From positions 1 through 36,121 of the forward strand of contig NZ_JALJYG010000016.1 of assembly GCF_024170505.1 (NCBI RefSeq): 36,121 nt of DNA, read 5' to 3'. Positions 80 through 19,931 of this stretch are shown here, piece after piece. Made by a program: the position numbers and the translations under genes. Under the pieces are notes generated by a model. The model worked only from the letters and a program-made list of their open reading frames with translations, did no database searches and had not been told where the DNA came from. Within the stretch, counting starts at the first letter, position 1; every line of letters begins with the position of its first letter. The DNA is from Methanocalculus alkaliphilus. Its GTDB lineage: Archaea; Halobacteriota; Methanomicrobia; Methanomicrobiales; Methanocorpusculaceae.

Positions 80-1468
80 TTATTCGAAGTTCTCTTTACA
101 TAATAAATGTAGCTGAGTTTCTGTTGCCCGAGGATTTGCCGGATATGGCGTTGGTTCGACATAGCGTCTGGCATCATGTACATAGTAAACCGGACCTTTT
201 TTTGATAATACCCCCTGAATAATATTATTACTCATATACACTTTTCCATACGGACTCTGTTCTGGTGCGAGATCATGAAACGTCTGTCTAACAGGACCAG
301 TTTCCGCATACCGACTATCCATAATATTATATTCAATCCATGCTCCGGTTCGTGGCTGGCCTCTCTGATTATAGGCATTCTGATCCGTTCCAAGGAAGGT
401 ATTATGATGAATCCAAATCCAGTCGCCTCCCCATTGCAAAGCGTCCGGATCCTGATGCATATCAAAATAAGCAGACTCTGCATTTGGACCGACGATATTG
501 TACCGTGCTTCAAATGAGCAGTATGGTCTGCCCGCACCTGTTATGGAATGCCGATTATTATCGAACAGATTTGCTTCGATTAAAACTTCCGAATTAAATA
601 AAATAATTCCATACCCGGTTCCAGTAAAAAGATTTGTATGGATATGGTTGTGATGGATGTATTGCCCGCTGTCTGGCCCTGTATCCTGTAAACGAATAGC
701 TGCATATCCCCATTCATAAATTTCACAATTATCTACTTCGAAATTGTCATGGTTTGATCGTATGGCGTGTCGTCCATCCCTGAAATTCTCTGAGGTCGGG
801 TATGGCCCCTGCAGTCTGAGCCCGGTTATTCGGATATCAGGACCATCAGTGTTAAATGGGCGGCCGGATTGAGGATCACCAGCAAATGCGTTCTGATATA
901 TCCGGCCGCCAGGAGCTCCGTTTTCACCTCGATTACTCGCTATTGTCACGCCTCCGGGAATACGGATATCAAAGGTTCCTGAGAGGTCGATGTGTGCATT
1001 TCCATCAACATACACAATATCGCCAGGCTTCGCCTGGTTTAATGCTGCAAGTAACCCGGCCTTATCATGAATGATCGCTATGACCCGGGGATCATTGGGT
1101 TGAATAATATCATTATATCCAATTCCACCCCCGATGGGGTTCCCTGTGGGGTTTGCATCTGCACCATAGGGTAACGAAGTGTCAGGATTTTGATCAGGAT
1201 GAAGAAGAAGCAATAAAGTTGAGAGCCACAGATCTTTCTGTTTCATAATCGAATTAAGCGACAGAATTCCTATGGGTATAGTATGATCATGTCTTTCTGC
1301 AGTATTTTTCATCTCCAGGTTCTCACAGTCGTTTATGGGTATAGACTCTGGTGCAATGGAGCTTGAGGGAAGTGCTATAGCATTGGAAGTAGAGAAAAAA
1401 CTTAAAAGTAGAATAAAAACCATAGCTTTTACATAGTCATCTACTCCTGATATTGATAAACGATACAT
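80..1468 (-). CDS. Secreted right-handed beta-helix (pectate-lyase-like) protein
   Basis: Probable exported polysaccharide-binding or -cleaving protein. The N-terminus has a hydrophobic stretch (AMVFILLLSFF) followed by a small-residue region, as in a signal peptide. The body has the Asn/Gly/His-rich repeats of parallel beta-helix proteins: PGDIVYVDGNAHIDL, an IRITGLRLQGP rung, NNRHSITGAG, and WIWIHHNTFLGTDQN, which resembles the core of pectate-lyase folds. The exact substrate cannot be read from the sequence. The frame opens at a TTG (1480), but an AAGGAG box lies almost on top of it, so the ATG at 1468 is preferred, although its spacing is long (about 14 nt). It diverges from the glycosyltransferase at 1801 and may trim or anchor the glycan made by this locus; that role is inference. 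Confidence 0.75.
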   Translation of the reverse strand: MYRLSISGVDDYVKAMVFILLLSFFSTSNAIALPSSSIAPESIPINDCENLEMKNTAERHDHTIPIGILSLNSIMKQKDLWLSTLLLLLHPDQNPDTSLPYGADANPTGNPIGGGIGYNDIIQPNDPRVIAIIHDKAGLLAALNQAKPGDIVYVDGNAHIDLSGTFDIRIPGGVTIASNRGENGAPGGRIYQNAFAGDPQSGRPFNTDGPDIRITGLRLQGPYPTSENFRDGRHAIRSNHDNFEVDNCEIYEWGYAAIRLQDTGPDSGQYIHHNHIHTNLFTGTGYGIILFNSEVLIEANLFDNNRHSITGAGRPYCSFEARYNIVGPNAESAYFDMHQDPDALQWGGDWIWIHHNTFLGTDQNAYNQRGQPRTGAWIEYNIMDSRYAETGPVRQTFHDLAPEQSPYGKVYMSNNIIQGVLSKKGPVYYVHDARRYVEPTPYPANPRATETQLHLLCKENFE

Positions 1469-1480
1469 AAGGACGTGCAA

Positions 1481-3129: not shown

Positions 3130-3219
3130 ATGCCTGATAGAAAAGAACGATGGCAACATAGTGAATTTTCAAATGCGATAATTATTATAATTACACAGAC
3201 ATCATATATTAAATCATGA
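3130..3219 (+). CDS. Possible 29-residue leader ORF overlapping the flippase start
   Basis: A short frame starts at ATG 3130 (MPDRKERWQHSEF) and ends in a TGA that overlaps the ATG of the flippase gene as ATGA. The flippase has no clear ribosome site of its own, so reading this small frame could couple translation into it. The peptide has a run of five isoleucines, no recognisable domain and no good ribosome site of its own. It may simply be chance in AT-rich DNA. Confidence 0.2.
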   Translation: MPDRKERWQHSEFSNAIIIIITQTSYIKS

Positions 3220-4577
3220 ATTGGTGGCCGTTTGGAAAGCAAAAAGCAGTCACTTTTTTAACCAGTACCTCCATTGGTGCCAAATTCATACATTTCATTA
3301 ATAAAAACCCATTGTATAAGGGTGTATTAGTCCTGGGCAGCGGAACTGCATTAGCCCAGCTGATAGGAATTCTCTCGATGCCAATCATCACACGGCTCTA
3401 TACCCCTTCCGATCTGGGTATGCTGACGATTTATTCATCAATTTTGTCATTAGTTATTGTTACAGCTTCCTTTCGATATGAAATTGCATATCCTTTGCCA
3501 AAAAAGAATGAGGATGTTGTAAACCTCTTTGCATTATGTCTTCTTTTGCTTATTGGAACAACCATCGGTTTTTCTCTTCTGCTCATCATTGCAGGGAATT
3601 TTTTTATTGTTTTTTTTAATCTGGATTCTGTTCAATCGATAGTATGGTTACTTATCATTGGTTTTTTTGGTATGGGGCTCTATACAATCCTCAACCACTG
3701 GGCAATTCGCCAGAGAAACTATACGAAAATCACTCATACAAAAATTAACCAGAGTGTTAGTGGATCTGTCGCAAAAATCGTACTTGGAATGCTAGCGATG
3801 GGTCCCATAGGTTTAATAGTAGGTCATATAATCAGTCAGATCGCAGGGATCGGGACATTTTTAAAGGCCATTTGGAAGAGTGAGCGGACCAGTTTCAAAG
3901 TGGTTTCATTTTCAGGCATCAGGTCGGTTGCAAAGGAATACTGGAAATTTCCAGCATTTAGTATCCCTTCATCTTTTTTAAACGCCTTTGCTTTACAACT
4001 ACCTCCAATCATGTTATTATACTTATATAATTCACAGATTGTTGGCTTCTATGCACTTGCCCATATGTTAATCGTCGCACCAGGGAGTGTTATTAAAGCA
4101 TCAATAGGACAGGCATTTCATGGAGATGCAGCCAAGATGGTTCGAGAGGGATCTCCTGAGTTAAAGACATTATATATTCAAACAGTGAAACACCTCTCTC
4201 TGCTTGCAATTCCTCTCATAGGTATACCCTCCCTGTTGGGGCCTTTGTATGTACCAATACTATTTGGAGAGGAATGGATTGATGCAGGGTGGTATTTACT
4301 TCCATTAGCACTGATGGTTATACCAGCATTCGTCATCTCTCCAATAACACGATTGGATCTCCTGGGATATAACCACTGGATGTTAATCTGGGATGCAATG
4401 AGGGTCTTAGGAGTCGTTGGAGGTTTTTATATTTGTTATCTATTTGAATTTCCAGTGCTCCTTACCCTTACGGTTTACTCAATCATATTATTAATAATGT
4501 ATTTTATTGTTATGCTCCTCAATCTTAAGGCCATCGACAACTTTAATCTTCAGCAATGGGCAGATAAACCAGTATGA
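3216..4577 (+). CDS. Wzx-type polysaccharide flippase (MOP/MATE-like superfamily)
   Basis: Polytopic membrane protein predicted to flip a lipid-linked oligosaccharide across the cytoplasmic membrane. The 453 residues contain about 12 hydrophobic segments. The N-terminal part has the family signature: GSGTALAQLIGILSMPIITRLYTPSDLG followed by a loop and an RYEIAYPLP segment typical of O-antigen/teichoic-acid-type exporters (the first stretch is residues 43-70 or so). The length is normal for Wzx. No strong ribosome site precedes the ATG, and the gene overlaps a tiny upstream frame by ATGA. Together with the ABC exporter at 32.5-34.5 kb, the window offers two alternative routes for glycan export. 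Confidence 0.88.
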   Translation: MNWWPFGKQKAVTFLTSTSIGAKFIHFINKNPLYKGVLVLGSGTALAQLIGILSMPIITRLYTPSDLGMLTIYSSILSLVIVTASFRYEIAYPLPKKNEDVVNLFALCLLLLIGTTIGFSLLLIIAGNFFIVFFNLDSVQSIVWLLIIGFFGMGLYTILNHWAIRQRNYTKITHTKINQSVSGSVAKIVLGMLAMGPIGLIVGHIISQIAGIGTFLKAIWKSERTSFKVVSFSGIRSVAKEYWKFPAFSIPSSFLNAFALQLPPIMLLYLYNSQIVGFYALAHMLIVAPGSVIKASIGQAFHGDAAKMVREGSPELKTLYIQTVKHLSLLAIPLIGIPSLLGPLYVPILFGEEWIDAGWYLLPLALMVIPAFVISPITRLDLLGYNHWMLIWDAMRVLGVVGGFYICYLFEFPVLLTLTVYSIILLIMYFIVMLLNLKAIDNFNLQQWADKPV

Positions 4578-4717: not shown

Positions 4718-5698
4718 TTATAATGCAATTCTAAACGAATGAAAAATGGTTTTTGTATGAACTCCATAATAGGGAATTAATATCGGATCGAAATTTAAGG
4801 CAAATTTTGAAAGGTTTTCTGTATTGGCTGCCATCATGAAAATTTTGTTAACATCAGAAGACTGAAGGTTCTGCAATATCTCTGATAATAAAAAAAAGGT
4901 GGCTCCCGTGTGCAGGTAATCCGGATCAGCAGCAGCAAACCATCGATATGCCCCTTGCTTGTCCCAAATAATACATTCTCCTGATATCGGTATACCATCC
5001 TGCGTTGAGGCAATCCACATTGCTCCGATATTTGTCTGATGTATCATATCCAATAATGTCGTTAATTGCTTTTTTTCAAAAGGAACTTTCATATTCTGTT
5101 TTTCATATGTTTTGACTGCGAGATCCCACATCAGATCATTATTAAATTCTTTACTAATAGATATATTTTCATTTTGTGCTTTAGTGATATTTCTCTTTGC
5201 ATTTCTCGAAAGAGAAGCAAAAATATTGCGATCAAGAGGCAGAACATATGTATATTTAATAAAAGACTTCCATTTACTCCAGATTAAAGGTCGAATGTCG
5301 GTAAGTGCAGGATTATTAATAATTGTAATATTCGGATATCCAAGTTTATATATTGCATCAGATAACGCCGTGATAATTTCCTGAGTCCATACTTCCTGCT
5401 GACGAACATCTGCAGAGTCACTAAATGCTAATACAAAACCCGAGTAGGGAGTTAAAGGAACGCTTGTAATAGCACTTTTTATCCCATACAAATAATTTCG
5501 TTCATATAAACAACAACCCCCGACCAGTTTATCCTGGTGGAAGGCCCCCAATAATACAAATCTACAGTCCAAGCTTTCTGAATTGCATTTCAGCCAATTA
5601 ATTGTGTGAAATACCGTTCCCTGAGGGGATGATGATACCAGGTCATCCCAGCGACGATAGTCATTGGAACCTAATTCATGGACTGATATACCGGTCAT
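4718..5698 (-). CDS. FemAB/GNAT-like acyl- or aminoacyltransferase, paralogue 1
   Basis: Member of the FemAB/peptidoglycan-bridge (Acetyltransf_6-like GNAT) group. In bacteria such enzymes add amino acids from aminoacyl-tRNA to cell-wall precursors; archaea lack murein, so the acceptor here is unknown. Visible conserved blocks are SSPQGTVF near residue 27 of the full frame, VGGCCLYERN near 62, NNPALTDIRP near 131, SGECIIWDKQGAYRW near 242 and MMAANTENLSKFALNFDP near 291. The frame opens at 5707, but the second Met (5698) is better spaced from GAAGGGATG. It is the most divergent of the three paralogues in 4.7-9.4 kb and is followed by convergent flippase DNA. Confidence 0.78.
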   Translation of the reverse strand: MTGISVHELGSNDYRRWDDLVSSSPQGTVFHTINWLKCNSESLDCRFVLLGAFHQDKLVGGCCLYERNYLYGIKSAITSVPLTPYSGFVLAFSDSADVRQQEVWTQEIITALSDAIYKLGYPNITIINNPALTDIRPLIWSKWKSFIKYTYVLPLDRNIFASLSRNAKRNITKAQNENISISKEFNNDLMWDLAVKTYEKQNMKVPFEKKQLTTLLDMIHQTNIGAMWIASTQDGIPISGECIIWDKQGAYRWFAAADPDYLHTGATFFLLSEILQNLQSSDVNKIFMMAANTENLSKFALNFDPILIPYYGVHTKTIFHSFRIAL

Positions 5699-5874
5699 AG
5701 GTGGCATCCCTTCAGAGGCTTCTCATTCGTCATTACCATCTTCCCCCTTCGCGATCATCAAATATTTAAAAATATTAAAAGAAGACATATCATACATAAT
5801 ACAATACACCCAACATAATTATTATACATAAAAAATTTAAACCATATATACCATATACCATTTAATAATCACCC

Positions 5875-6879
5875 TCACCCATTTTTGAAGTGACGTAAGA
5901 GAGTAAGGATTAAGGAATCTCTACTAACACCATAATATGGCACCAAAACAGGATTGAAGCCCGTTGCAAACCCAGTAGATTGGGGGGTGTTCGCATGCAT
6001 AATATTAACCTCCTTCAACCCTCTCTTCTGTAATTCCTCGAATGTACGATACATCAATAGATACTTCGCTCCGGTGTCGTGAATGTCCGGTGAGTGAGCA
6101 GCATTCCAGGCATATGCTCGTTTATTATCCCATACCCAGAAATATGATGCCAATAGTTCTCCGGATGAATCCCTCACAGTCTTCATCTCACCGGAACCGG
6201 TCAATTGGAAGATATCAAAAAATTTTTGGAGCATGAGCTTATTCAGGGGAGGTGGTGAATTGCGTTGTTCAAACTCCTCCATAAGTAATTGATAGTGAGA
6301 GTCGATGGAGAAATGATTTCCAAATTGAAGATCTTCATTAATTGCCTGACGTATCTGTTCCTTGGTATTCGATGAAAAATCCTCATATGAGAATTGTTCC
6401 AGATTGATATAGTACGTATATGCTACGGTACATTCCCAGTCCTGCCGGAGAAATGGCCGAATATCCACAAGATTCGGAGAGTTTGAAATGGAGATTGAGG
6501 CATACTTTTCCTTAATAATATATTCACTAAGTGCATTAAGGCAGACATTATACTCCATCTCTTTCTTCCGTATCTTTATCTCATCCGTCTTTTTATATAT
6601 AAAGCCACAAAATGGCGTATCCGGCCCCTTCGAGACGGCATATTTACCAATGATGTGGTTTCTCCGTTCAAATAATGAACATCCACCAATGAGATCTTCA
6701 TCCAAAAAACATCCGATTATCTTCAGCCTGCTGCCCGTTGCTTCAGCAAGGATAGCCAAGTACCTACTGGAAGAAAAAATACTCCCCTGTGGTGATTCTT
6801 CAACGAGACTGTCCCATTGTGGATAATCCACTTGTGTAAGAGGGCGGACCCAGGCTGCATTCCGACTCATCAGGATCAA
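5875..6879 (-). CDS. FemAB/GNAT-like acyl- or aminoacyltransferase, paralogue 2
   Basis: Close relative of the protein at 8376-9386. Shared blocks are VRPLTQVDYPQWDSLVEES then PQGSIFSSSRYL, LIGGCSLFERRN, GPDTPFCGFIY, SISNSPNLVDIRPFL, TYYINLEQF, ASYFWVWDNKRAYAWN and NIMHANTPQSTGFATGFNP. At 334 residues it is shorter than bacterial FemA/FemX proteins and fits compact archaeal or bacterial FemAB-like proteins of exopolysaccharide loci. The start may be the first Met or the Met three codons later (6870). An amino-acid or acyl transfer onto a sugar amine of the local glycan is a reasonable inference but is not shown by sequence. Confidence 0.8.
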   Translation of the reverse strand: MILMSRNAAWVRPLTQVDYPQWDSLVEESPQGSIFSSSRYLAILAEATGSRLKIIGCFLDEDLIGGCSLFERRNHIIGKYAVSKGPDTPFCGFIYKKTDEIKIRKKEMEYNVCLNALSEYIIKEKYASISISNSPNLVDIRPFLRQDWECTVAYTYYINLEQFSYEDFSSNTKEQIRQAINEDLQFGNHFSIDSHYQLLMEEFEQRNSPPPLNKLMLQKFFDIFQLTGSGEMKTVRDSSGELLASYFWVWDNKRAYAWNAAHSPDIHDTGAKYLLMYRTFEELQKRGLKEVNIMHANTPQSTGFATGFNPVLVPYYGVSRDSLILTLLRHFKNG

Positions 6880-7048
6880 TTCACTGCTTATTCTGTTTTC
6901 TGTACCATTCTTATCCCTCTCTTGTCCGAGGGGTACATCATCACCCGGCGTATCACCATACGATTATTTTTACCATAGAATATATGTTTGTAAATAATAT
7001 TAATATCTTTTCATGTCAATGTAATTATGAAGGAGGAGAAACACTCCC
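6880..7048. promoter_or_regulatory. Divergent promoter region between FemAB paralogue 2 and the radical SAM unit
   Basis: AT-rich DNA between two divergent transcription units, with a TATA-like stretch around 6962-7010. A very strong ribosome-site motif AAGGAGGAG at 7030-7038 lies 10 nt before an ATG at 7049. No larger gene is seen here. Confidence 0.35.
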
Positions 7049-7135
7049 ATGGAACAATCCATGAGATCCATTCTGAAGGCTTCCGTCCTCCACTACCAGT
7101 ACAAGTACGAAATATATAAAATAAATAAAATATAA
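7049..7135 (+). CDS. Candidate 28-residue peptide ORF upstream of the radical SAM gene
   Basis: A short frame starts at ATG 7049, 10 nt after AAGGAGGAG, the strongest ribosome site in this part of the window. It reads MEQSMRSILKASVL and then a Tyr-rich tail, HYQYKYEIYKINKI. It ends 62 nt before the radical SAM gene on the same strand, the position usually taken by a precursor peptide of a radical-SAM-modified peptide or by a leader. The AT-rich codons of the tail could equally be chance. An overlapping alternative frame (ATG 7027) lacks a ribosome site. Confidence 0.3.
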   Translation: MEQSMRSILKASVLHYQYKYEIYKINKI

Positions 7136-7197
7136 TAATATTACAGATAGTTTCTTTGAAACATCCAACTGAAAGAGTGACGTCTGATGAGTGAGAT

Positions 7198-8358
7198 ATG
7201 ACACTTATTGAAGAGTTGAAAATACTACTATCAGGTCTGTGTGAACACCCTGTTCCATCTGTAGTGGATATCAACCTCACAACGAGATGCAATCAAAATT
7301 GTATGTATTGTGAGATAGGTCAGGGGATGCTCAAGCCGGAAAGAGAAGGCAAGCGCTTTCTGAACCTGCATGATATACAATGGATCATCGATCAGATGAA
7401 GGATGGTGAAATTCAAAGTTTGATTCTCCTTGGGGGAGAGCCCTTTTTATTCAGAGATATATTTTCTGTTATTGAATATGCATCAGATAAAATACAAAAT
7501 ATTTCCATTATAACAAACGGAATGCAGATTCCACAATTATCAATAGAAGAATTAACCATATTGCGATTATCGAATTGCAAAATTATTGTATCTTTAGACT
7601 CGTTTGATGCAAAAACACATAACAGGATACGGGGGTGTCCCGATGCGTACGAAAAAGCTGTTCAGGCTATCAGAATTCTCATCGATCACCAGATTCCTGT
7701 ACAGATAGAAACCGTCATGACACACTATAATTATCACGAACTCTCTGATATCGTGAAGAAGGCATATTCAATGGGGGTTTCATCAGTTCAATTTGTCCCG
7801 CTCATAACGGTCTCAAATTTTCCATCAGTCAATGGGATACCAGAAAAATATACATTAAATCCCAAATTAGAACATATTGAGAGACTTTCTCAGGAATTTG
7901 ACGCGATTCTTTCTTTTGAAGAAGAGCATACAATAAAAACCAATATCCATGACATTAAAAAATGGATGGGGTACTATATCCTTTTCCATACAGCATCAAC
8001 GAATGAGAGTGATTTCTTTTTTGAATATCGTCTGAAGAGATTTTTTTGCTGGACGATATACACTCGTATCAAGATCAATGCCTATGGGGAAATACAGCCA
8101 TGCAACCTTATACCATCTCATATTTCCATATATACTGACCCTGATGAACCGCTTCTCCACAAATGGAATAGATCCTGTGAGGAAGTTCGTACGGCAATAA
8201 AAGAGCAGAACTATCCCCGGCAGTGTAATGGCTGTTACAGTTCCCATACAAGAAACCTTCTGTTATCCACGATGAAGTATCCTTTCGAGAACAGGCATAC
8301 TATTCCTCAAATAATCCTTGAACAGATAGAAAGGATGAAAAAGAAGAGCCTCGGTTAG
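7198..8358 (+). CDS. Radical SAM protein with SPASM-like C-terminal cysteines
   Basis: Predicted [4Fe-4S] radical S-adenosylmethionine enzyme of 386 residues. The cluster-binding CxxxCxxC motif is C31-C35-C38 within TTRCNQNCMYCEIG, and the SAM-binding GGEP is at 79-82 (LILLGGEPFLF). SLDSFDAKTHNRIRG follows, as in the MoaA/PqqE/anSME-like group. The C-terminus has further cysteines in FFCW, GEIQPCNL and RQCNGCYSS, which suggest a partial SPASM or twitch domain with extra clusters, typical of enzymes acting on peptides or other macromolecules. It lies alone on the + strand between two FemAB-like genes on the - strand. The substrate is unknown; peptide, glycan or lipid are all possible. Confidence 0.88.
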   Translation: MTLIEELKILLSGLCEHPVPSVVDINLTTRCNQNCMYCEIGQGMLKPEREGKRFLNLHDIQWIIDQMKDGEIQSLILLGGEPFLFRDIFSVIEYASDKIQNISIITNGMQIPQLSIEELTILRLSNCKIIVSLDSFDAKTHNRIRGCPDAYEKAVQAIRILIDHQIPVQIETVMTHYNYHELSDIVKKAYSMGVSSVQFVPLITVSNFPSVNGIPEKYTLNPKLEHIERLSQEFDAILSFEEEHTIKTNIHDIKKWMGYYILFHTASTNESDFFFEYRLKRFFCWTIYTRIKINAYGEIQPCNLIPSHISIYTDPDEPLLHKWNRSCEEVRTAIKEQNYPRQCNGCYSSHTRNLLLSTMKYPFENRHTIPQIILEQIERMKKKSLG

Positions 8359-8375
8359 TTCGTCCGGGTTGATAA

Positions 8376-9386
8376 TTATCTTCCCATATATTTCTTCATG
8401 ATCTGATAGCATGATGCCAGGGGACGATTGGTTTCAATAGTATAATATGGTTTTAATTCGGGGTTAAATCCTGATGCAAACTGTGTCAGCCGCGGCGTAT
8501 TAGCATGCATTATATTGACCTCCGTAAACCCCATCTCCTTTAACTCTTCTAAAAAGGTATAAAACATTAATTTATTTGCACCACCATCCCGGAAGTCGGG
8601 GGATAGAACTGCACCTCCGCTCCACGCGTACGCCCGTTTGTTATCCCAGATCCATACATATGATGCCAGAAGTTGGTCCGACGAGTCTTTAAGAACTCTC
8701 ATACCTCCTGAATGGGTTGATTGAAAAAAGTGTAATAATTTCTCATAATAAACCTCGCTAAAGGGGGGATGAGCGCCATGCTGTTGGAAAACTGTAGTGA
8801 GTAAATGAAAATAGGAATGAATGTCATCACTCTTTTCATAAGATAGATTTTTACTTTGAGCCATTTTGATGCTTTTCTTAACACTCGATGAAACGTTCGC
8901 TAAGGAAAAGCTGTTCAGATAGATATAATATGTATACGACACCCGCTCTTTCCAGCCACGCTGAAGAAAAGGACGAATATCCAGAAGATCCGGAGAGTTG
9001 CTAATCGATACTGAGGTGTACCGTTGACTTTTTATATAGTCGCAGATGGCATTGACACATCGATTATAGTCCATCTCAGTTTTCCGTATGTGTGCGTTCC
9101 CGACGTCATGATACAGTAGGCCACAAAACGGGGTGCCGGGTCCACCGGAGATGACATGAGTGCCGAGGAGGCCTCTGCTTTTTTCAAGTACTGAGCAGCC
9201 GCCCATGAGATCATCATGAACGAAATAACCAATTATCTTCAGCCTGCTGCGAGATGCCTGAGAAATAATCTCCAGATACCGACTTTTAGAAAAAATACTT
9301 CCTTGTGGTGATTCATCAACAAAAGCATCCCATACGGGATATTCCTCTTCTGTAAGAGGGCGGACCTGAGGGACCTCAAGACTCAT
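8376..9386 (-). CDS. FemAB/GNAT-like acyl- or aminoacyltransferase, paralogue 3
   Basis: 336-residue paralogue of the protein at 5875-6879, with the same blocks in the same order: QVRPLTEEEYPVWDAFVDES, PQGSIFSKSRYL, LMGGCSVLEKSRG, GPGTPFCGLLY, SISNSPDLLDIRPFL, TYYIYLNSF, ASYVWIWDNKRAYAWSGG and NIMHANTPRLTQFASGFNP. Its 3' end converges on the radical SAM gene with only 17 bp between the stop codons. It probably arose by duplication, with the radical SAM unit later inserted between copies or retained by selection. The start is the first ATG. Function as for the other paralogues; the acceptor is unknown. Confidence 0.8.
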   Translation of the reverse strand: MSLEVPQVRPLTEEEYPVWDAFVDESPQGSIFSKSRYLEIISQASRSRLKIIGYFVHDDLMGGCSVLEKSRGLLGTHVISGGPGTPFCGLLYHDVGNAHIRKTEMDYNRCVNAICDYIKSQRYTSVSISNSPDLLDIRPFLQRGWKERVSYTYYIYLNSFSLANVSSSVKKSIKMAQSKNLSYEKSDDIHSYFHLLTTVFQQHGAHPPFSEVYYEKLLHFFQSTHSGGMRVLKDSSDQLLASYVWIWDNKRAYAWSGGAVLSPDFRDGGANKLMFYTFLEELKEMGFTEVNIMHANTPRLTQFASGFNPELKPYYTIETNRPLASCYQIMKKYMGR

Positions 9387-9571
9387 ACTATCACATCAAT
9401 TCCAGGTTCTCCCGGATGCTTCGTTAACACTCTCCCTGATAAACAATATTTACACCGCCTGGATGGTATTAATATAAAATAACTGTATTACAATAATAAG
9501 TACACCCTGCAGCCTATGGAAGCTGATCCGGAGCTAACAGTTTATTGAGATTATCAGAGAGACAGATGTAC

Positions 9572-10603
9572 CTATGTATCCCGAAAAGCTTCTGCTATCT
9601 CCTCTCCGGTCGTCATCCATGCACCCTTCCCATGGCAGTATTCAAGTATCCTTTTATACACCCCCAACGTCTCCCCTTCCATAAAACTGTTATGCCAGAG
9701 TATGGTGATCACCCCATGGCATTGCTCCACAGTATCAATGAGGTGCCGGACGATCTCAAAGGCCAATCCTGGATCAAACTGCATATATCCATACAAGGTA
9801 TCATCCATGACAATTAGGGGAATTTCAACCAGTTTGATCTCCTTCTCTTCTGCACGATCATACGGCCTGAATGGGTAACACATTCCATTCCGAAAGCCGA
9901 CGCAGTCAGCATAGCCAAATGTGGTATCATACAGAAATCCGGCCTTCTCAAGATGATGCCATGTATCCGGAACCCTGAATCTGAGAAAGTGATTCCGATA
10001 ACCGGTGACCGGGTGGCCAACAACCTTCTCAAGCCGTGCCTTCTCAATCGATACCTGATCAGAGTCGCAGTATGCCTGGTGGCCCCCATGAAGACCAACC
10101 TCCCAGCCGGCATCATCGATCATCTCTATCTCTTCCTGAAGGTCCTGGATATCATATACATAATCCTGATCACCGGGGCTGAGAGACTTAAAATAGAAAC
10201 TGGATTTTGCCCCATAATACTCCTCAAGCGCCATTATCTTCTGAAAGTTACTGAGTGGGAGCTTTCTCGATCGCATGGAACATGCCGTTTGAATGCTCCG
10301 GCGTATCTCCCCTCGCTGGAAGGCTACGAATGAATCATACGCCTTTGAAGGTGTCGAGGTGTAGATACCATCAATATCATGTGTGAGACAGACCGCGAAG
10401 GGCTGGCCATCAGGATACTCCGGACAGTACCCCTGCCCGTGAAGGAATTGGGATGCAAGGGGTTTTAGGATTGTACGATTGGAACTGAGATAGTACGGAA
10501 AACGGTCATATTTATCCCTGTACCGACTCCCATACTCTTCAGCACTCGTGAAGAGATCCCAGATCGCAGGATCCTGCCTGAGAATATCATGCATCGACGT
10601 CAT
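9572..10603 (-). CDS. Polysaccharide deacetylase family protein (NodB-like)
   Basis: 343-residue member of the carbohydrate esterase 4/NodB superfamily, expected to remove N- or O-acetyl groups from a sugar in the local glycan. The metal-binding motif appears as LTHDID at residues 73-78, with the histidine pair in GLHGGHQAY (H172 and H175) and a conserved Arg in GYRNHFLRF (R203). ILWHNSF near residue 305 is the C-terminal His motif. The N-terminal 60 residues (PYYLSSNRTILKPLASQF) are typical of the archaeal and bacterial surface-polysaccharide subgroup. There is no signal peptide, so it would act in the cytoplasm on a lipid-linked or nucleotide-linked precursor. GGGGTGA sits just before the ATG. 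Confidence 0.82.
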   Translation of the reverse strand: MTSMHDILRQDPAIWDLFTSAEEYGSRYRDKYDRFPYYLSSNRTILKPLASQFLHGQGYCPEYPDGQPFAVCLTHDIDGIYTSTPSKAYDSFVAFQRGEIRRSIQTACSMRSRKLPLSNFQKIMALEEYYGAKSSFYFKSLSPGDQDYVYDIQDLQEEIEMIDDAGWEVGLHGGHQAYCDSDQVSIEKARLEKVVGHPVTGYRNHFLRFRVPDTWHHLEKAGFLYDTTFGYADCVGFRNGMCYPFRPYDRAEEKEIKLVEIPLIVMDDTLYGYMQFDPGLAFEIVRHLIDTVEQCHGVITILWHNSFMEGETLGVYKRILEYCHGKGAWMTTGEEIAEAFRDT

Positions 10604-10647
10604 ATTTCACCCCATAGTATTTATAATAAATTAATATATAAAATAAA

Positions 10648-10809
10648 CTATTTATCATCGCATCTTCCTCCCCACGGATGCTCTGAAAGGTGCTGCCACC
10701 GGTCATCCCCCCTCTCCTGATACGTATCTGCCAACGGGAAGGGCTCATCATCAAAGAAACCCATCTCCTGCTCAAGCATCACAAATGAGAGGAACAGAAT
10801 CAATTCCAC
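10648..10809 (-). CDS. Small acidic hypothetical ORF downstream of the sugar dehydrogenase
   Basis: An unrecognised frame follows the dehydrogenase on the same strand. It can start at GTG 10809, overlapping the dehydrogenase stop, or at ATG 10779. From the ATG it reads MLEQEMGFFDDEPFPL, then ADTYQERGDDRWQHLSE, and ends HPWGGRCDDK before TAG. The composition is GC-rich and protein-like, unlike the AT-rich DNA downstream. It could be a small real protein or the N-terminal stump of a longer gene lost by recombination at about 10650, where base composition changes sharply. Confidence 0.35.
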   Translation of the reverse strand: MELILFLSFVMLEQEMGFFDDEPFPLADTYQERGDDRWQHLSEHPWGGRCDDK

Positions 10810-12245
10810 TCCCCTCTCCCAACCCCCTTATACAGAAACCCTGCCTCCACCCATTTCTCCGGCTCCACAATATTCCTCCCATCCACGATCACCGGCCGCT
10901 CGCACCCACAGAACCGCTTCACCTGCTCAGGCACCAGTCCCCGGTATATCGCATGGCCGGTGAAGATCACCACGGCATCTGCATCGGTAAGTACCTCCTC
11001 AAGATCACCGGTGAGCCCGCCATCCGGGAGATCCGGTGACGTCGCAGGATCAACCCAGGGATCATGAACCCGAACTTCTGCTCCCGCCGCCCTTGCAGCC
11101 TTGAAATACGGTTCGGACGGGCTGTTCCGGGCATCATCGCTGTCGTTGATGAAAGCCCAGCCGAGGAGTGCGATCCGAGCGCCCGTGAGGGGCTTTCCCG
11201 CCTCTGCAAGGGCTGCTTTGGTGAGATGGAGCATATGCTCAGGCATGAAGTCGTTGATGTCACGGGCGAGGGTGTAGAGCGACTGCATCCCCTTGGGATA
11301 ATCAAGGGTGGAACCTGCAGACTGCACCCCCCGCTCCAGGTGATAGGTATCCTTCGTCAGGCAGTGTCCGCCGACGCCGGCACCGGGCCAGAGGATGGCA
11401 CGGGTGATCCCTTCGCCCTTCAGCGAGTCGATCCCGGCCCGGACATCATAGAAGTTCACGCCCATCGCCTCGCAATAGAGGGCGAGCTGGTTCGCAGCGG
11501 CAATCTGAAGGTCGCGGAAGGTATTCTCGGCGGTCTTCGTCACTTCGGCCGCGGTTGCGGTCATCGGGATGACGCGGCCGGTCGTCAGGACCGGGGTATA
11601 GAGTTCAACGGCCCGCATCGTAGAGACGCGATCGATCCCACCGATAATCCGGTCATGCTCGCGGATGTTTCTGAGGAGCCGGCCGACCATCACCCGCTCA
11701 GGGGCATGGGCGAGGGCGAAGTCCCGGCCGGCGACAAGCCCGGACTCCTCTTCGAGGATCTCCCGGGCCATCCCGACGGTGGTGCCGGGGGTGATGGTCG
11801 ACTCAAGGACGACGAGCATACCGGGTGTAAGGTTTGCACCGACATGCCGGAGGCCGTCGATGAGGGGGGTGAAGTCAGGGAGGAGATCAGCATGATCTTT
11901 AAATGGCGTCTGGATGGCGAGGCAGACGGCATCGCAGTCTGCGATCTTCGAAAAGTCCGGTGTGCAGGAGAAGGTTCCTGCATCGACAACCTTTTTGAGG
12001 AGCGGCTCAAGCCCCGGCTCCTCGCCTTTGAGTGGTGACTCGCCACGGTTCAGCATCGCGATCTTGTAGCCAGAGGTCGTTGAGTCCCGCTGAAACCCGT
12101 AGACATGTCTGATCCCGGGGATATCGGCGAAGAGGACTGCGGCGGGGATGCCGACATACCCCATGCCGATGACACCGATGGTCCTTATTGGCCCGCGTTC
12201 TGTGATGCGTGCTGCGAGATGATTCTCTGGGTGCTGGTCTGTCAT
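10800..12245 (-). CDS. UDP-N-acetyl-hexosamine 6-dehydrogenase (WecC/WbpA-like)
   Basis: Nucleotide-sugar dehydrogenase of the UDP-glucose/GDP-mannose family, which oxidises C6 of a UDP-HexNAc to a uronic acid using NAD+. The Rossmann motif is IGVIGMGYVGIP (residues 23-34). The catalytic half has AEVTKTAENTFRDLQIA with the conserved Lys at 237, and the nucleophilic Cys at 295 in GVGGHCLTKDTYH. At 481 residues it is slightly longer than usual because of a short N-terminal extension. It lies 29 bp downstream of the 2-epimerase, which favours UDP-ManNAc or a 2,3-diacetamido analogue as substrate; sequence alone does not separate WecC from WbpA/WbpO types. Confidence 0.9.
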   Translation of the reverse strand: MTDQHPENHLAARITERGPIRTIGVIGMGYVGIPAAVLFADIPGIRHVYGFQRDSTTSGYKIAMLNRGESPLKGEEPGLEPLLKKVVDAGTFSCTPDFSKIADCDAVCLAIQTPFKDHADLLPDFTPLIDGLRHVGANLTPGMLVVLESTITPGTTVGMAREILEEESGLVAGRDFALAHAPERVMVGRLLRNIREHDRIIGGIDRVSTMRAVELYTPVLTTGRVIPMTATAAEVTKTAENTFRDLQIAAANQLALYCEAMGVNFYDVRAGIDSLKGEGITRAILWPGAGVGGHCLTKDTYHLERGVQSAGSTLDYPKGMQSLYTLARDINDFMPEHMLHLTKAALAEAGKPLTGARIALLGWAFINDSDDARNSPSEPYFKAARAAGAEVRVHDPWVDPATSPDLPDGGLTGDLEEVLTDADAVVIFTGHAIYRGLVPEQVKRFCGCERPVIVDGRNIVEPEKWVEAGFLYKGVGRGEWN

Positions 12246-12274
12246 GGTCGTCTCCTCATGTGTTGTTGCTCGTA

Positions 12275-13357
12275 CTATCTCCTGTATTCTTTCTCAAATG
12301 CACTGATAATTCGTCTGATCCCGTCTGCGGCGGTGCCGTCGCCATAGTGTGCGGCGTGGTTTCCACAGCGGTCGCTATCCCCGGTCATCTGACGGACTGC
12401 TGAAATAATACGGCCGGTATCGGCACCTGCCAGCACGTTCCAGCCATCATCCACCGTCTCGATCCACTCGGTATTCTCCCGCAGGGTGATACAGGGGACC
12501 TGCAGGATATATGCCTCCTTCTGGACCCCGCCTGAGTCGGTGAGAACAGCGGCAGCCTGGGAGAGCAGCCGGAGCATATCCAGATAGGGGAGCGGGTCGA
12601 TGAGCCGGATAGTTCCTTTGGCAAGAATTCCATACTGTTCCAGGTATTTCCTCGTCCTCGGGTGTGCCGGGAAGATCACCGGCCGGTCAAGAGCGGCAAA
12701 TGCGGCAATGATAGATCTGAGGTTCTGCTCGAGATCGGTGTTGCTGGCACGGTGGACGGTGGCGAGGTAATAGGTGCCGGATTTGAGACCAAGCCGATCC
12801 AGAATACCTGATGTTGCAGCCAGCTCCCGGTTATAGAGGAGGGCATCGACCATCACATCCCCGACACGATGCACACCCTTCTGTATACCCTCGCGGGCAA
12901 GGTTTGCTACCCCGTTTTCAGTCGGGACAAAGAGGAGATCAGACGCATGGTCGGTGAGTACACGGTTGATCTCCTCAGGCATGCTGCGATCAAAGCTCCG
13001 GAGGCCGGCCTCAACATGCGCAACCGGGATATGCAGTTTTGCAGCAGCCAGTGCACCAGCAAGGGTGGAGTTGGTGTCGCCATAGACGAGGACCATATCC
13101 GGGGTTTCCTTCAGCAACACCTCTTCAATCGCGAGAATCATCCGGCCGGTCTGTGCCCCGTGGGACCCGGATCCGATCCCGAGGTGGTAGTCTGGTGTCG
13201 GGATGGATAGTTCCTCGAAGAAGACATCCGACATATTCTCATCATAATGCTGGCCGGTATGTACCAGGATCTCCTGGTGATCTGTTCTGAGTGCCCGTGA
13301 GACCGGTGCGCATTTGATGAACTGGGGCCGGGCGCCGATGATTGAAACGATCTTCAT
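12275..13357 (-). CDS. wecB: UDP-N-acetylglucosamine 2-epimerase (non-hydrolysing, WecB/WbpI-like)
   Basis: Interconverts UDP-GlcNAc and UDP-ManNAc, or the 2,3-diacetamido-uronic forms in WbpI-type enzymes. Motifs are MKIVSIIGARPQFIKCAP at the N-terminus, VYGDTNSTLAGALAA, HVEAGLRSFDRSMPEEINR, TVHRASNTD, IFPAHPRTRKYL and LTDSGGVQKEAY. The frame extends to 13378, but the family N-terminus and spacing choose ATG 13357. This ATG overlaps the TGA that ends the decayed PIN-toxin frame (ATGA), so translation may once have been coupled to the toxin gene. It is followed by the dehydrogenase after 29 bp. WecB versus WbpI cannot be settled; the neighbouring 3-oxidoreductase and aminotransferase lean toward WbpI. 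Confidence 0.9.
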   Translation of the reverse strand: MKIVSIIGARPQFIKCAPVSRALRTDHQEILVHTGQHYDENMSDVFFEELSIPTPDYHLGIGSGSHGAQTGRMILAIEEVLLKETPDMVLVYGDTNSTLAGALAAAKLHIPVAHVEAGLRSFDRSMPEEINRVLTDHASDLLFVPTENGVANLAREGIQKGVHRVGDVMVDALLYNRELAATSGILDRLGLKSGTYYLATVHRASNTDLEQNLRSIIAAFAALDRPVIFPAHPRTRKYLEQYGILAKGTIRLIDPLPYLDMLRLLSQAAAVLTDSGGVQKEAYILQVPCITLRENTEWIETVDDGWNVLAGADTGRIISAVRQMTGDSDRCGNHAAHYGDGTAADGIRRIISAFEKEYRR

Positions 13358-13604
13358 GAGGTCATCCTGTAATCCCAATAGGTATTTCGTATCGTTGTTT
13401 CGAGCAGAAATTGTATGGCTGCTGGTTTGAACAAAGGGTCGGTGCGTGCATGTGCAGTCTCATCAAGAACTGCTGATGGTGTAACGAGATAATAGATTTC
13501 CTAAGGTTTTTATAGATCGTATCTCTCTTTTCATGAAAACGCTCTTTGCGGTTTAAAAGCGCAATCCAGCAGACTGTATCGACAAAACAGAGATTATTCT
13601 TCAT
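13354..13604 (-). pseudogene. Decayed PIN-domain (VapC-like) toxin, frameshifted and truncated
   Basis: The first part reads LCFVDTVCWIALLNRKERFH, the start of a PIN ribonuclease with its first acidic residue in FVDT. After KNLRK, at about 13490, the reading frame has to change: the next frame gives IYYLVTPSAVLDETAHARTD, then PLFKPAAIQFLLE, matching the middle of a PIN domain with its conserved Glu. Without the shift the frame runs into unrelated residues. Even when repaired it is about 83 residues against about 130 for the family, and the last acidic motif is missing where the epimerase begins. It overlaps the antitoxin by about 11 nt. The protein is probably inactive. Confidence 0.7.
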
Positions 13605-13836
13605 GCACTCTCACTTTTGGCTTTCCATAGAGGTAATGATCATGCTCTATTGCCAGATCTGAAATTCCGGTATCACCAGCAAGGGATGAAATATTGAAGG
13701 CAGGATCATTCTCAACATCAGAATCTTCAACAGGAGTGGTCACGATGATGGTAGACCTTCTTCCGGCTTCCAGATGAACAGGCTTTGATGGCCGAAATAC
13801 TGATCCATCATACAGGACGTCCCTTGTTGTTGCCAT
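13594..13836 (-). CDS. AF2212-like (DUF104-type) antitoxin of a VapBC-like pair
   Basis: 80-residue protein with the usual antitoxin start: VLYDGSVFRPSKPVHLEAGR and a short beta-rich segment (STIIVTTPV). It then has SLAGDTGISDLAIEHDHYLY, the TGI-DLA-HDHYLYG motif common in antitoxins that partner PIN toxins. It should bind the toxin and its own promoter. The gene is complete and overlaps the broken toxin downstream, so it may be an orphan antitoxin. It sits between the sugar oxidoreductase and the 2-epimerase, an unusual place for a toxin-antitoxin module. Confidence 0.7.
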   Translation of the reverse strand: MATTRDVLYDGSVFRPSKPVHLEAGRRSTIIVTTPVEDSDVENDPAFNISSLAGDTGISDLAIEHDHYLYGKPKVRVHEE

Positions 13837-13911
13837 ACATACTCACCACGTCGTATCAGGTATACACATATGTTATCGTGATGTAATTCTCCTTCTGGTT
13901 CCTCTTTTGAT

Positions 13912-14831
13912 TTACCGCTTCATCTCCTCAATAACCCCTTCACAGATCCGGAGATTTGAGAGAGCCTGTTCAGGTGTCACCAGGAACGACGTCCCTTCAC
14001 GTACTGAGCGGACGAAGGCTTGAAGTTCGGCTTTCAATGGTTCAACCTTGTTGACCAGCACCTTCTCGATGATATTCTCCTGCCTGTAGAGGCCATTGGT
14101 CTGGTCATAGGTGTTTGGTTTTCGGTGAACATAGATCTCCTGGGTCATGAAGTCACCCTCGATCGTCATATTCTCCTCCTCAATGTAGATTGACCGGACC
14201 TTCTTTGCAGACTTCCGGGAAGCGGAGAGATAAAAGGACTTTTTTTCCCAAAAGATCCGAGTACAAGGGCAATATCCCCGTTACCCTGGGCAGAGAAGGT
14301 ATACTCCTGGTCCGGGAAGAAGGCATTGAAGAGGATATCAATATCATGAATCATCAGGTCCTCTATGACCGATGAACCACTCACCCGTGCAGAGGCGGGG
14401 TTGTGCCGGTGGAAGGCAATATACTCAGGATTTCTTGAAATTTTCTTCAGCTCCGCGACGATCGGGTTGAACCGCTCGATATGCCCGACCCCGACGATAA
14501 GATCCTCTGAGATACCCTGAATCAATGCTTCCCCTTCTGCTGCAGTGAGGCAGATCGGTTTTTCGATGAGGGCATGGACGCCTGCCTTCATCACCTTCAT
14601 TGCAGTATCGAAGTGGAACGGTGTCGGTACCGCAAGGGTCACGAGATCCACCTTGCGAAGGAGTGCCTCCATCGAAGGGCAGACCTCTGCTTCCGTCAAT
14701 GCTGCAATTTCTTCTGCACTCTTTGTGTTCAGATCATAGACATATGTCGCCCCGACCTCTTTCAACTCGCTGTAAACCCGAACATGGTTTCGCCCCATGA
14801 TTCCGGTCCCTATTACTCCAACATCCATCAT
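13912..14831 (-). pseudogene. Gfo/Idh/MocA-family oxidoreductase (WbpB-like), split by a frameshift
   Basis: NAD-dependent sugar oxidoreductase, in the Wbp pathway the 3-dehydrogenase acting on UDP-GlcNAcA. The N-terminal part (14831 down to about 14247) has MDVGVIGTGIMGRNHVRVY, VTLAVPTPFHF and the conserved EKP motif in ALIEKPICLTAAEG. The frame shifts at a run of seven A (7 T on the + strand at 14240-14246). The other frame continues SFYLSASRKSAKKVRSIYI, then EEENMTIEGDFMTQEIYVHR, and ends at 13912. Adding one base to the run restores a protein of about 306 residues, normal for the family. This may be a true inactivating deletion, a phase-variable tract or a sequencing error. Confidence 0.8.
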
Positions 14832-14915: not shown

Positions 14916-16001
14916 TCATGGTGTCACCTCATTCAGACATTCAACAATATACCCACGTTCATCTGCTCCAACACCCGGATGTACCGGCAGGGAGAGCACC
15001 GATGCTGCCAGCTCCTCAGCAACCGGCAGTCTCAGGCCGGAGTCGTATATCGGCTGCCTGTGAAGCGGGACCGGGTAGTGGATTGCCGAACCAATCTCCT
15101 TCTCTTTCAGATATGCCATCAGGGCTTCACGGGAGAGCGGGGCATCACCGGTCACCCGGATCACATACTGGTGCCAGACAGGGGTGCAGCCGGGGGCGAT
15201 CCCGGGTGTCAGAATCCCGGGCACCCTGATATGGTCGTTGAAGTATGCTGCATTCTCCTGCCGTGCCCGGATAAATTCGTCCAGCTTTGATAACTGCACC
15301 CGCCCGATGGCGGCGGCGATATCGGTCATCCGGTAGTTATACCCGATACCGGTATGGAGATACTTCTCGGACTGCCCATGGTTGATGATCCGCCGGAGCC
15401 GTTCATGGAGGTGATCTGATCCGGTCGTCACCATCCCACCTTCACCGGTTGTCATATTCTTTGTTGCATAGAAGGAGAAGCAGGCGAGGTCCCCAAACGA
15501 ACCCACCTTTTCCCCATTGATCATCGCCCCGTGTGCCTGCGCCGCATCCTCGATGAAGGTCAGTGCATGATCTGAGGTGAGCTCCCGGAGGGTGACGGCG
15601 TCGCAGGGGTGTCCGTAGAGATGCACCCCGATCACCGCTTTTGTCTTTGACGTTATATTTTCCACGATTGAGCCGGGATCGATACAGCAGGTATCTCGTC
15701 TGACATCGGCAAAGACCGGTGTTGCCCCGGTCATCGAGACGGAGGATGCGGTTGCAAAGAAGGTGAATGCAGGCAGAATCACCTCATCGCCGGGACCCAC
15801 ACCTGAGGCAAGGAGGGCGGCATGGAGGGCTGCGGTGCCGTTGTTGACGGCGACTGCATATTTTGTACCGCAATATGCGGAAAACTCGTCTTCAAAGGCT
15901 CTTGTGATCGGCCCTTCGGCTATGATACCGGATGCAAGGACCGAGGCGACGGCATCTGACTCCTCTGTGCCGAGGGATGGGCGTGCAATTGGAACATTCA
16001 T
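14916..16001 (-). CDS. DegT/DnrJ/EryC1-family sugar aminotransferase (WbpE-like)
   Basis: PLP-dependent aminotransferase that converts a UDP-keto-sugar to an amino-sugar, usually with glutamate as donor. Visible motifs are NNGTAALHAALLASGVGPGD, EVILPAFTFFATA, FIEDAAQAHGA with the PLP-binding Asp (D152 from the chosen start) and SFYATKNMTTGEGG with the Schiff-base Lys (K181). YNYRMTDIAAAIGRVQLSKL is also typical. The frame reaches 16058, but MNVPIARPSLG at 16001 matches the family N-terminus. With the MocA-family gene 84 bp downstream it forms the oxidation/transamination pair that makes 3-amino-3-deoxy sugars, consistent with a 2,3-diamino-uronic acid product. Confidence 0.88.
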   Translation of the reverse strand: MNVPIARPSLGTEESDAVASVLASGIIAEGPITRAFEDEFSAYCGTKYAVAVNNGTAALHAALLASGVGPGDEVILPAFTFFATASSVSMTGATPVFADVRRDTCCIDPGSIVENITSKTKAVIGVHLYGHPCDAVTLRELTSDHALTFIEDAAQAHGAMINGEKVGSFGDLACFSFYATKNMTTGEGGMVTTGSDHLHERLRRIINHGQSEKYLHTGIGYNYRMTDIAAAIGRVQLSKLDEFIRARQENAAYFNDHIRVPGILTPGIAPGCTPVWHQYVIRVTGDAPLSREALMAYLKEKEIGSAIHYPVPLHRQPIYDSGLRLPVAEELAASVLSLPVHPGVGADERGYIVECLNEVTP

Positions 16002-16348
16002 TGCTCTACCAAGGGATATGTTGCTTTTTAGTATATTTTGCATTATATAAATATACATCTATTCACCATTACCTATGTGGTGAGGGTGTCATACAGATGC
16101 ACAATACGAAATATGCTGAAAAATGGCGCAATGCATGCTTCTGTCGCGATGCAGGAATGCATCCTACATTACACTCCGGATCAGGGTCAGCCGCATCCTG
16201 GAAGAGGGTGTGTGGTCAGGGGCGGTGCCGGCGATACATACGGCATCGTACGGGCAGATGAATCGCCGGGCGTGATCATCTCTCCTGCCGCGTAGTCGGG
16301 TGGTCGGCCGGGGGGATCATCGCCCGGATCAGGCTGAAGAAGCAGGGG
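16002..16348. other. Intergenic region without a convincing gene
   Basis: This gap separates the aminotransferase from the ATGA-coupled unknown operon. The part next to the aminotransferase (16030-16100) is AT-rich and probably holds its promoter. The remainder (16120-16340) is GC-rich, with short open frames on both strands but nothing recognisable. It may be remnant coding DNA. Confidence 0.3.
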
Positions 16349-18131: not shown

Positions 18132-18509
18132 TTAAAGGCAAAGGAAAAGATAACTACAGATATATAGAGGAGGGATCAGGTAGAAGACATTTATATGTAT
18201 ATGAGAGAGTAAGCAGCCACGAGATGAGCAGCTCTGAGTAAAATAAACGCTCTTTGCGGATTTTGTGGCCATGGCATACCGGTATGTATTATTATGATGG
18301 GGGCTAATTCTGTAGTAGTGAACGGGAGTACGACAGGCGAGAGATATTCCGAGCACTCTATCAGATGTGGTGGAGTAATTGGAGATGAGGTATATCTCAA
18401 TAGCTCGCCTCAATACCAAAGTGCTTTAGCATCGTCAATAGCTTCGACAACGAATCAATGCAAATCATTGGATAACTGCTCAAACGGTTTTATTCCAACA
18501 AGAGAAATC
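18132..18509. other. Region upstream of the GT2 gene with no convincing gene
   Basis: The GT2 reading frame is open from 18294, but residues before 18510 do not resemble the family and are Ser/Asn-rich, so this is treated as upstream DNA. AT-rich stretches around 18130-18250 may hold the promoter. Confidence 0.3.
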
Positions 18510-19454: not shown

Positions 19455-19550
19455 GTTAAGCAATCAGAGGTCAAGGAATGAACGATAAAATTATCGATAA
19501 CCAATCTGAAATTTTCAAGACATCTATTGCGATTAAGGAGAATATTTGAG

Positions 19551-19931
19551 ATGATTCATCATTTCATAAAGAGTGAGCACGCCCTCGGGGAAGTTCCATT
19601 CAACGTCACCTATGACGTCCCCCATAAGCACAAGAAGAACGCGCTCTCCCACGGCCTCGGGGTGCTCGCAAAGCTCATCGGGGTGATCGGGTACCGCCGG
19701 CCCCTGCTCTCGTTTGGGATTCCGGGACTGGTCTTCTTTGTGGCCGGGTTTGTCCTTGAGATCTATACGTTCTCGCAGTATGTGCGGGCCGGGGCGTTTC
19801 ATTTTATACTGTTTACGGGGGGCATTTCGTTTCTGACGTTCGGGTTGCTGTTGATGATGTGCGGGTTGATCCTGAATTCGCTTGTTATTATTATGAAAGA
19901 GCATCGAGATGATACAAACCGACATGTTTAG
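19551..19931 (+). pseudogene. C-terminal fragment of a second DPM1-like GT2
   Basis: A 126-residue frame matches only the last third of the GT2 just upstream: EVPFNVTYDVPHKHKKNALS aligns with the EVPIKVRYDI region, GLGVLAKLIGVIGYRRPLL with the linker, and FGIPGLVFFVAGFVLEIYTF plus a second membrane segment with its membrane domain. The catalytic DDGS and DADGQH region is absent. An AAGGAG motif 10 nt before ATG 19551 means the piece could still be translated as a small membrane protein. The GC-rich body meets AT-rich DNA at about 19550, which marks a recombination junction. Confidence 0.75.

Follow-up and report, generated by a model that had tools for sequence, protein, structure and literature searches.

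The Wbp enzymes of Porphyromonas gingivalis and Tannerella forsythia produce a 2,3-diacetamido uronic acid. One of its acetyl groups is believed to be taken off by VimE, and serine or glycine to be added by VimA (PMC7468200). When vimA was swapped between species, serine was replaced by glycine in the sugar, and VimA matches the TIGR03019 family (PMC7468200). Here we analyze a stretch of 36,121 nucleotides from the archaeon Methanocalculus alkaliphilus (contig NZ_JALJYG010000016.1, positions 1 to 36,121), referred to below as the window. It contains three genes for FemAB-like transferases (Fem1, Fem2, and Fem3) around a gene for a radical S-adenosylmethionine (SAM) enzyme, next to genes for a VimE-like sugar deacetylase and for Wbp-type sugar enzymes. 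We consider it probable, with moderate confidence, that the locus follows the Wbp/Vim logic of bacteria in an archaeal form, which would yield an N-aminoacylated diamino uronic acid.

The likeness to the Wbp/Vim system lies in the presence of a VimE-kind deacetylase beside a TIGR03019-like transferase (a weak match in the window) and Wbp-type diamino-uronic-acid genes. Unlike the bacterial system, the window is archaeal and has three transferases and an extra radical SAM gene, and no type IX secretion is expected. In 296 genomes of the phylum to which a Bacteroidetes locus belongs, no VimE match exceeded the cut-off. The transferases also resemble the FemABX enzymes, namely FemX of Weissella viridescens and FemX and FemA of Staphylococcus aureus, in their predicted double-GNAT fold, their length (that of W. 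viridescens FemX), their profile similarity, and the lack of an acetyl-coenzyme A (CoA) motif. In contrast to FemABX, they come from a host without murein, and the identity is ~12%. A related GNAT-fold enzyme, Orf11 of the BD-12 pathway, transfers glycine from Gly-tRNA to the amino sugar of streptothrisamine (cited in PMC12945691). The streptothrisamine enzymes Sbb17 and Sba18 give the best profile match to the window proteins, but they belong to Streptomyces secondary metabolism and retain an F-K motif, which is absent from the window proteins. In the XrtA/PEP-CTERM module, a Fem-like transferase (TIGR03019) is likewise paired with a polysaccharide deacetylase (TIGR03006), whereas no exosortase was detected in the genome of the window and the scores are far below the equivalog cut-offs.

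Fem chemistry joins the carbonyl of an amino acid to an amine. The threonine of the Methanococcus glycan, which the initial annotation had offered as a precedent, is attached at position 6 of N-acetylmannuronic acid, that is, to the carboxyl group, and the polarity of the bond is opposite (PMC2952790). As a position 6 bond is not made by known Fem chemistry, this precedent was rejected. A better one is found in bacteria, where the Wbp/Vim pathway gives a 2-N-seryl or 2-N-glycyl sugar (PMC7468200).

Gene Content of the Locus and Proposed Pathway

All four open reading frames were found where the initial annotation had placed them, the three Fem-like ones on the minus strand and the radical SAM one on the plus strand. 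The setting proposed in the initial annotation, an archaeal glycan locus, was borne out, as the genome is that of a Methanocalculus and the Fem genes lie amid glycan genes.

4718–5707, minus strand: Fem1, a FemX-fold (double GNAT) aminoacyl-transferase-like protein, 329 residues
5875–6879, minus strand: Fem2, a Fem paralogue, 334 residues counted from the listed TTG start
6880–7197: divergent intergenic region between the Fem2/Fem1 side and the radical SAM gene, 318 bp
7198–8358, plus strand: radical SAM protein, 386 residues, with CxxxCxxC and a C-terminal twitch-type auxiliary-cluster motif
8376–9386, minus strand: Fem3, a FemX-fold aminoacyl-transferase-like protein, 336 residues, modeled
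9572–10603, minus strand: VimE-like CE4-type sugar N-deacetylase, the next gene after Fem3, 343 residues
10800–12245, minus strand: WbpA-like UDP-HexNAc (uridine diphosphate-N-acetylhexosamine) 6-dehydrogenase, TIGR03026 above the cut-off, nearest to archaeal UDP-ManNAc dehydrogenase
12275–13378, minus strand: UDP-GlcNAc 2-epimerase WecB/WbpI, TIGR00236 above the cut-off
13912–14831, minus strand: WbpB-like UDP-GlcNAc 3-dehydrogenase, frameshifted, in pieces 14166–14831 and 13912–14169
14916–16058, minus strand: WbpE-like DegT/DnrJ aminotransferase
3216–4577, plus strand: Wzx-like polysaccharide flippase of the MOP family, which recurs beside Fem/deacetylase pairs in other genomes

The true start of Fem2 may lie slightly downstream of the listed TTG. 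Genes of the WbpA, WbpE, and WbpI types are present in the window, and the WbpA, WbpB, WbpE, and WbpD types are all present in the genome.

The gene content, together with the conserved pairing and the fold described below, leads us to infer a donor, an acceptor, a product, and a role for the radical SAM enzyme. The Wbp-type enzymes would make UDP-2,3-diamino-2,3-dideoxyhexuronic acid with acetylated amines, and the VimE-like deacetylase would strip one acetyl group to leave a free amine. The FemX-fold enzymes would then put an aminoacyl group, most likely from aminoacyl-tRNA, on the freed amine. The finished unit would enter a surface glycan, with the adjacent MOP flippase flipping it, and the radical SAM enzyme would probably act further on this sugar or on the aminoacyl group attached to it.

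Fem Genes Are Paired with a VimE-like Deacetylase

A scan with the deacetylase alignment yielded 77 named loci in archaea and bacteria, which are not independent, many being from Methanosarcina. A Fem gene is present in 32 of them. In 17 of these the two genes share a strand and are no more than 400 bp apart, and in 12 of the 17 they overlap. The Fem-positive loci include those of Methanoculleus, Methanoregula, Methanosarcina, Methanomassiliicoccales, Chloroflexi, Anaerolineaceae, and Clostridia, and 22 of the 32 also contain a MOP flippase gene. Among 61 related genomes, 11 have both families, four have Fem alone, nine have the deacetylase alone, and 37 have neither (Fisher p = 2.6e-4, without correction for kinship), so that 11 of the 15 Fem-positive relatives also carry the deacetylase. 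Plasmids show the same association: 27 of the 30 records with the deacetylase, mostly from haloarchaea and not independent, also hold a Fem gene, at a median distance of 10 kb.

The full gene set occurs in a single run in one relative (G058), in the order hexapeptide acetyltransferase, DegT, Gfo, UDP dehydrogenase, WecB, VimE, and Fem. It is also found on plasmid pHME505 of Haloferax mediterranei (L153, 3736–13877), in the order acyltransferase, DegT, Gfo, UDP dehydrogenase, WecB, VimE, an open reading frame, Fem, and Fem, where the two Fem genes are annotated simply as GNAT N-acetyltransferases. On the plasmid record (NZ_CP039140.1) the deacetylase and these two Fem genes occupy ~343.3–348.2 kb. 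The conserved partner of the Fem genes is the VimE-like deacetylase with the Wbp sugar genes and not the radical SAM gene. The suggestion that the block adds amino acids to the local glycan is partly supported, by the glycan setting and by the fold of aminoacyl-tRNA-dependent transferases, but the partner that had been assumed for the Fem genes has to be replaced.

Longer deacetylases (~530–540 residues) and Fem-like genes were also observed within ~15 kb of an exosortase gene in two relatives, at L038 (G058) 7437–14081 and at ~1247478–1262558 of G038. The exosortase matches are strong (PF09721, E 2e-23 and 1e-20), and the arrangement parallels, in archaea, the XrtA exopolysaccharide module known from bacteria. 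A strong exosortase match was obtained in four relatives (G058, G038, G007, and G044), all of which have Fem-like genes. Among eight Methanocalculus genomes, the only two without a detected archaeosortase/exosortase homologue, M. alkaliphilus (G000) and M. chunghsingensis (G003), are those that carry the Fem/deacetylase/radical SAM block; the others are G001, G002, and G004–G007.

Fold of the Fem-like Proteins

The Fem-like proteins are genuine paralogues and not a case of chance similarity, judging by their sequences. Fem3 is 50% identical to Fem2 (E 1e-109) and 30% identical to Fem1 (E 2e-45), and the blocks SPQG(T/S)(V/I)F, DIRP, and (H/A)ANT are present in each of the three. Fem2 is sister to Fem3 in a tree that contains two old lineages, Fem1 and Fem2/Fem3, and no further copies were found in the 2.09-Mb genome. 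Because of these two lineages, it is plausible that the enzymes use different amino acids, act on different amines or sites, or make successive additions.

An AlphaFold2 model of Fem3 was built on 48 homologues (pLDDT, the predicted local distance difference test, 91.5) and shows the double-GNAT fold of FemX, with Z scores of 24.7–27.9 against FemX, FemA, and Sbb17/Sba18 over 273–301 residues. The closest solved structure is S. aureus FemX (Z 27.9, 301 residues), followed by FemA (25.9), and the values for W. viridescens FemX and for Sbb17/Sba18 are both ~25. Aminoacyl-tRNA transferases of the MprF type score 17–19, and CoA-dependent tandem GNATs score at most 17.8. The comparison with FemX that the initial annotation had proposed therefore places Fem3 among the aminoacyl-tRNA-dependent transferases, and the fold does not group it with plain N-acetyltransferases.

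A profile of the family gave the same picture when compared with Protein Data Bank sequences. The best match is Sbb17 (4e-14), followed by S. aureus FemX (3e-13), W. viridescens FemX (1e-12), and FemA (2e-6). At E <1e-5 aminoacyl-tRNA-dependent enzymes alone were retrieved, Sba18 among them, and no CoA-dependent enzyme. The acetyl-CoA motif A, [QR]xxGx[GA], occurs in none of the 48 homologues. The model thus supports an aminoacyl-tRNA-dependent transferase fold for the Fem-like proteins. The basic helix at residues 164–181 has a median charge of +4 in the family (range −2 to +8), and the charge in Fem2 is −2.

A Radical SAM Gene Confined to Two Methanocalculus Species

The CxxxCxxC gene on the opposite strand encodes a radical SAM core (C31-x3-C35-x2-C38; PF04055, E 2e-20). 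Its C terminus contains C284-x12-G-x4-C302, C343-x2-C346, and C327, all of which are invariant in the orthologue of M. chunghsingensis. The NCBIfam twitch family NF033640 matches this part with E values of 1e-4 and 5e-6. The Pfam SPASM score is below the cut-off of 21.5 bits for the window protein (15.6) and just above it for the orthologue (23.3). The initial annotation had described SPASM-like cysteines; cysteines for a C-terminal auxiliary cluster are indeed present, but with four or five of them, and a SPASM score below threshold in the window protein, they are of the four-cysteine twitch type and not of the seven-cysteine SPASM type, and the SPASM label was dropped. The protein shares with BlsE, SkfB, and other twitch/SPASM enzymes a radical SAM core along with a single predicted auxiliary cluster, whereas the core alone aligns with them, no NCBIfam radical SAM equivalog cut-off is reached, and the protein is known from two Methanocalculus genomes. 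A structure model from the two-sequence alignment was not confident (pLDDT 48.9).

Close homologues of the radical SAM protein were found in two of 232 genomes of the class (E 1e-40) and in two of 393 genomes of the phylum (E 1e-30), both from Methanocalculus. The protein had no match on the plasmids, and viral contigs and 18 deacetylase-locus genomes gave weak generic matches at best. The second genome is that of M. chunghsingensis K1F9705b, where contig39 (16,348 bases) contains the deacetylase, Fem3, the radical SAM gene on the opposite strand, and Fem1, with order and orientation kept. The proteins of this block are 54–64% identical to those of the window; Fem1 (56%), Fem3, and the radical SAM protein fall between 54 and 56%. 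Fem2 alone is lacking, with no counterpart on the contig. In both species the radical SAM gene lies among Fem genes and is divergent from one of them, with an intergenic region of ~245 bp in M. chunghsingensis.

The co-occurrence of Fem and radical SAM genes in related archaea, which had been expected from the window, did not extend beyond these two species, and the idea of a general pair was rejected. Because the gene is present in just two species and both times beside Fem genes, we regard it as linked to them but outside the general system. From its position, our guess is that this Methanocalculus-specific accessory enzyme acts on the sugar that the Fem-like enzymes would aminoacylate, or on the aminoacyl group itself. 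In another genome (G035; L026, 5866–10321, minus strand), an unrelated neighborhood of this kind apparently exists, where a Fem-like gene lies two or a few genes away from the gene for a different radical SAM protein, one that has a true SPASM domain.

Arguments against the Proposed Pathway and Alternative Readings

Several observations weigh against an archaeal Wbp/Vim-like pathway. The deacetylase matches the VimE family NF053580 with 117 bits (E 9e-34), far below the curated cut-off of 440; by sequence it is a relative of VimE and not an equivalog, and its profile also matches solved polysaccharide deacetylases. A frameshift in a run of seven A near 14240–14246 splits the local WbpB-like gene and may reflect a sequencing error, pseudogene formation, or a phase-variable tract; two intact WbpB homologues are present elsewhere in the genome, on contigs C18 and C4. 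The WbpD-like hexapeptide acetyltransferase is distant from the locus, on contig C6. In 45 of the 77 deacetylase loci the available stretch contains no Fem gene, and the deacetylase therefore also serves other ends. In the open-licence literature searched, no archaeal glycan with an aminoacylated diamino uronic acid was found, which is weak evidence for novelty.

Further points concern the transferases. Two of them score 21.3 and 16.6 bits against Pfam FemAB (PF02388), below the gathering threshold of 24, and the third has no match. TIGR03019 is their best or second NCBIfam match, weak and below the equivalog cut-off, and it is through this common match, and not by direct sequence comparison, that they are likened to VimA. 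FemX and DhpH-C require a lysine (Lys305 in W. viridescens FemX, Lys329 in DhpH-C; PMC12945691), and the equivalent residue is alanine in Fem1, Fem2, and Fem3 (Ala304 in Fem3), as placed by sequence alignment in a short F-x-x-x-F motif and not by superposed coordinates. A lysine is found at this position in 11 of the 48 homologues, and nearly all methanogen relatives of the window proteins have Ile, Tyr, Thr, Val, Asn, or Leu. The lysine is retained in a second, more distant Fem type that their clusters also contain and in both H. mediterranei proteins. Because this lysine is absent, Fem1–3 were not classified as true FemX.

The missing lysine is also an argument for the strongest alternative, a minor but real possibility, namely that the FemX-fold proteins act as N-acyltransferases that depend on acyl-CoA and put an acetyl, formyl, or other acyl group back on the bared amine, so that one acyl group is swapped for another without tRNA. 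Acetyltransf_6, a GNAT family, is the best Pfam family for all three proteins and is above the cut-off, and a plain GNAT adjoins the Fem/deacetylase pair in G058, which makes acyl exchange plausible. However, the fold and profile matches to aminoacyl-tRNA-dependent enzymes are well above those to CoA-dependent ones, all 48 homologues lack motif A, and the genetics of VimA indicate amino acids (PMC7468200). Once the fold and the profile had been compared, the plain acetyltransferase reading was no longer the preferred one.

We think it unlikely that the pathway goes as far as a radical-modified, glycopeptide-like surface polymer in this organism, which has no murein. Here the three Fem enzymes, lacking the catalytic lysine, would use charged tRNAs to aminoacylate more than one amine of the diamino uronic acid or would act in sequence, and a dedicated radical SAM enzyme would then modify the aminoacyl sugar.

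An improbable alternative is that the acceptor of the Fem-like enzymes is a peptide or a lipid other than a sugar lipid, and that they and the radical SAM enzyme jointly produce a modified peptide natural product. Peptides are often matured by radical SAM enzymes that have auxiliary clusters, the nearest solved sequence to the window protein is that of SkfB, and Fem-type enzymes lengthen peptides in natural products (PMC12945691). Against this, a comparison of the two species showed no conserved small open reading frame or peptide precursor next to the radical SAM gene, and the constant neighbors comprise a sugar deacetylase, Wbp genes, and a flippase. Finally, it is very improbable that the genes were gathered by chance, with the Fem genes as decaying relics and the radical SAM gene as an unrelated passenger: the glycan island is variable and mosaic, with a frameshifted WbpB, transposase-like fragments, and a GC content that varies from 31 to 56% across the window, and the radical SAM gene occurs in just two genomes, but all four genes are intact, the orthologues of Fem1, Fem3, and the radical SAM gene keep their order and orientation in a second species, and the Fem-deacetylase pairing recurs across phyla.

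Possible Aminoacylation of Surface Sugars in Archaea

Murein is absent in archaea. Because three Fem-like genes lie beside a deacetylase and diamino-uronic-acid genes, the Wbp/Vim-like reading suggests that sugar aminoacylation occurs in these organisms and that they hang amino acids on surface sugars, a trait known from certain bacteria of gum disease. If this is true, tRNA-dependent aminoacylation of surface sugars would not be confined to bacteria and would be widespread in methanogens and haloarchaea, where such enzymes would be hidden under the label "GNAT family N-acetyltransferase." Archaea would thereby gain free amines or peptide-like branches on their glycans, comparable with the bacterial pathway that joins proteins to glycolipids. 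H. mediterranei is genetically tractable and carries the whole gene set on pHME505, which makes the idea directly testable.

Other Features of the Window

Two short open reading frames between the WecB and WbpB genes (13362–13836, minus strand) appear by eye to be toxin-antitoxin-like remnants, a PIN-like fragment and an antitoxin-like protein. Open reading frames at 26443–27901 (minus strand) resemble, also by eye, broken transposase pieces, consistent with a mosaic glycan island. A glycosyltransferase gene at 18294–19454 (plus strand) is followed at 19527–19931 (plus strand) by an incomplete copy of the membrane part at its C terminus, which on inspection looks like the remainder of a duplication. 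At 80–1480 (minus strand) the window encodes a right-handed β-helix protein that weakly matches "Disaggregatase related"; its relatives are found near Fem/deacetylase clusters in four other loci (L023, L032, L051, and L113).

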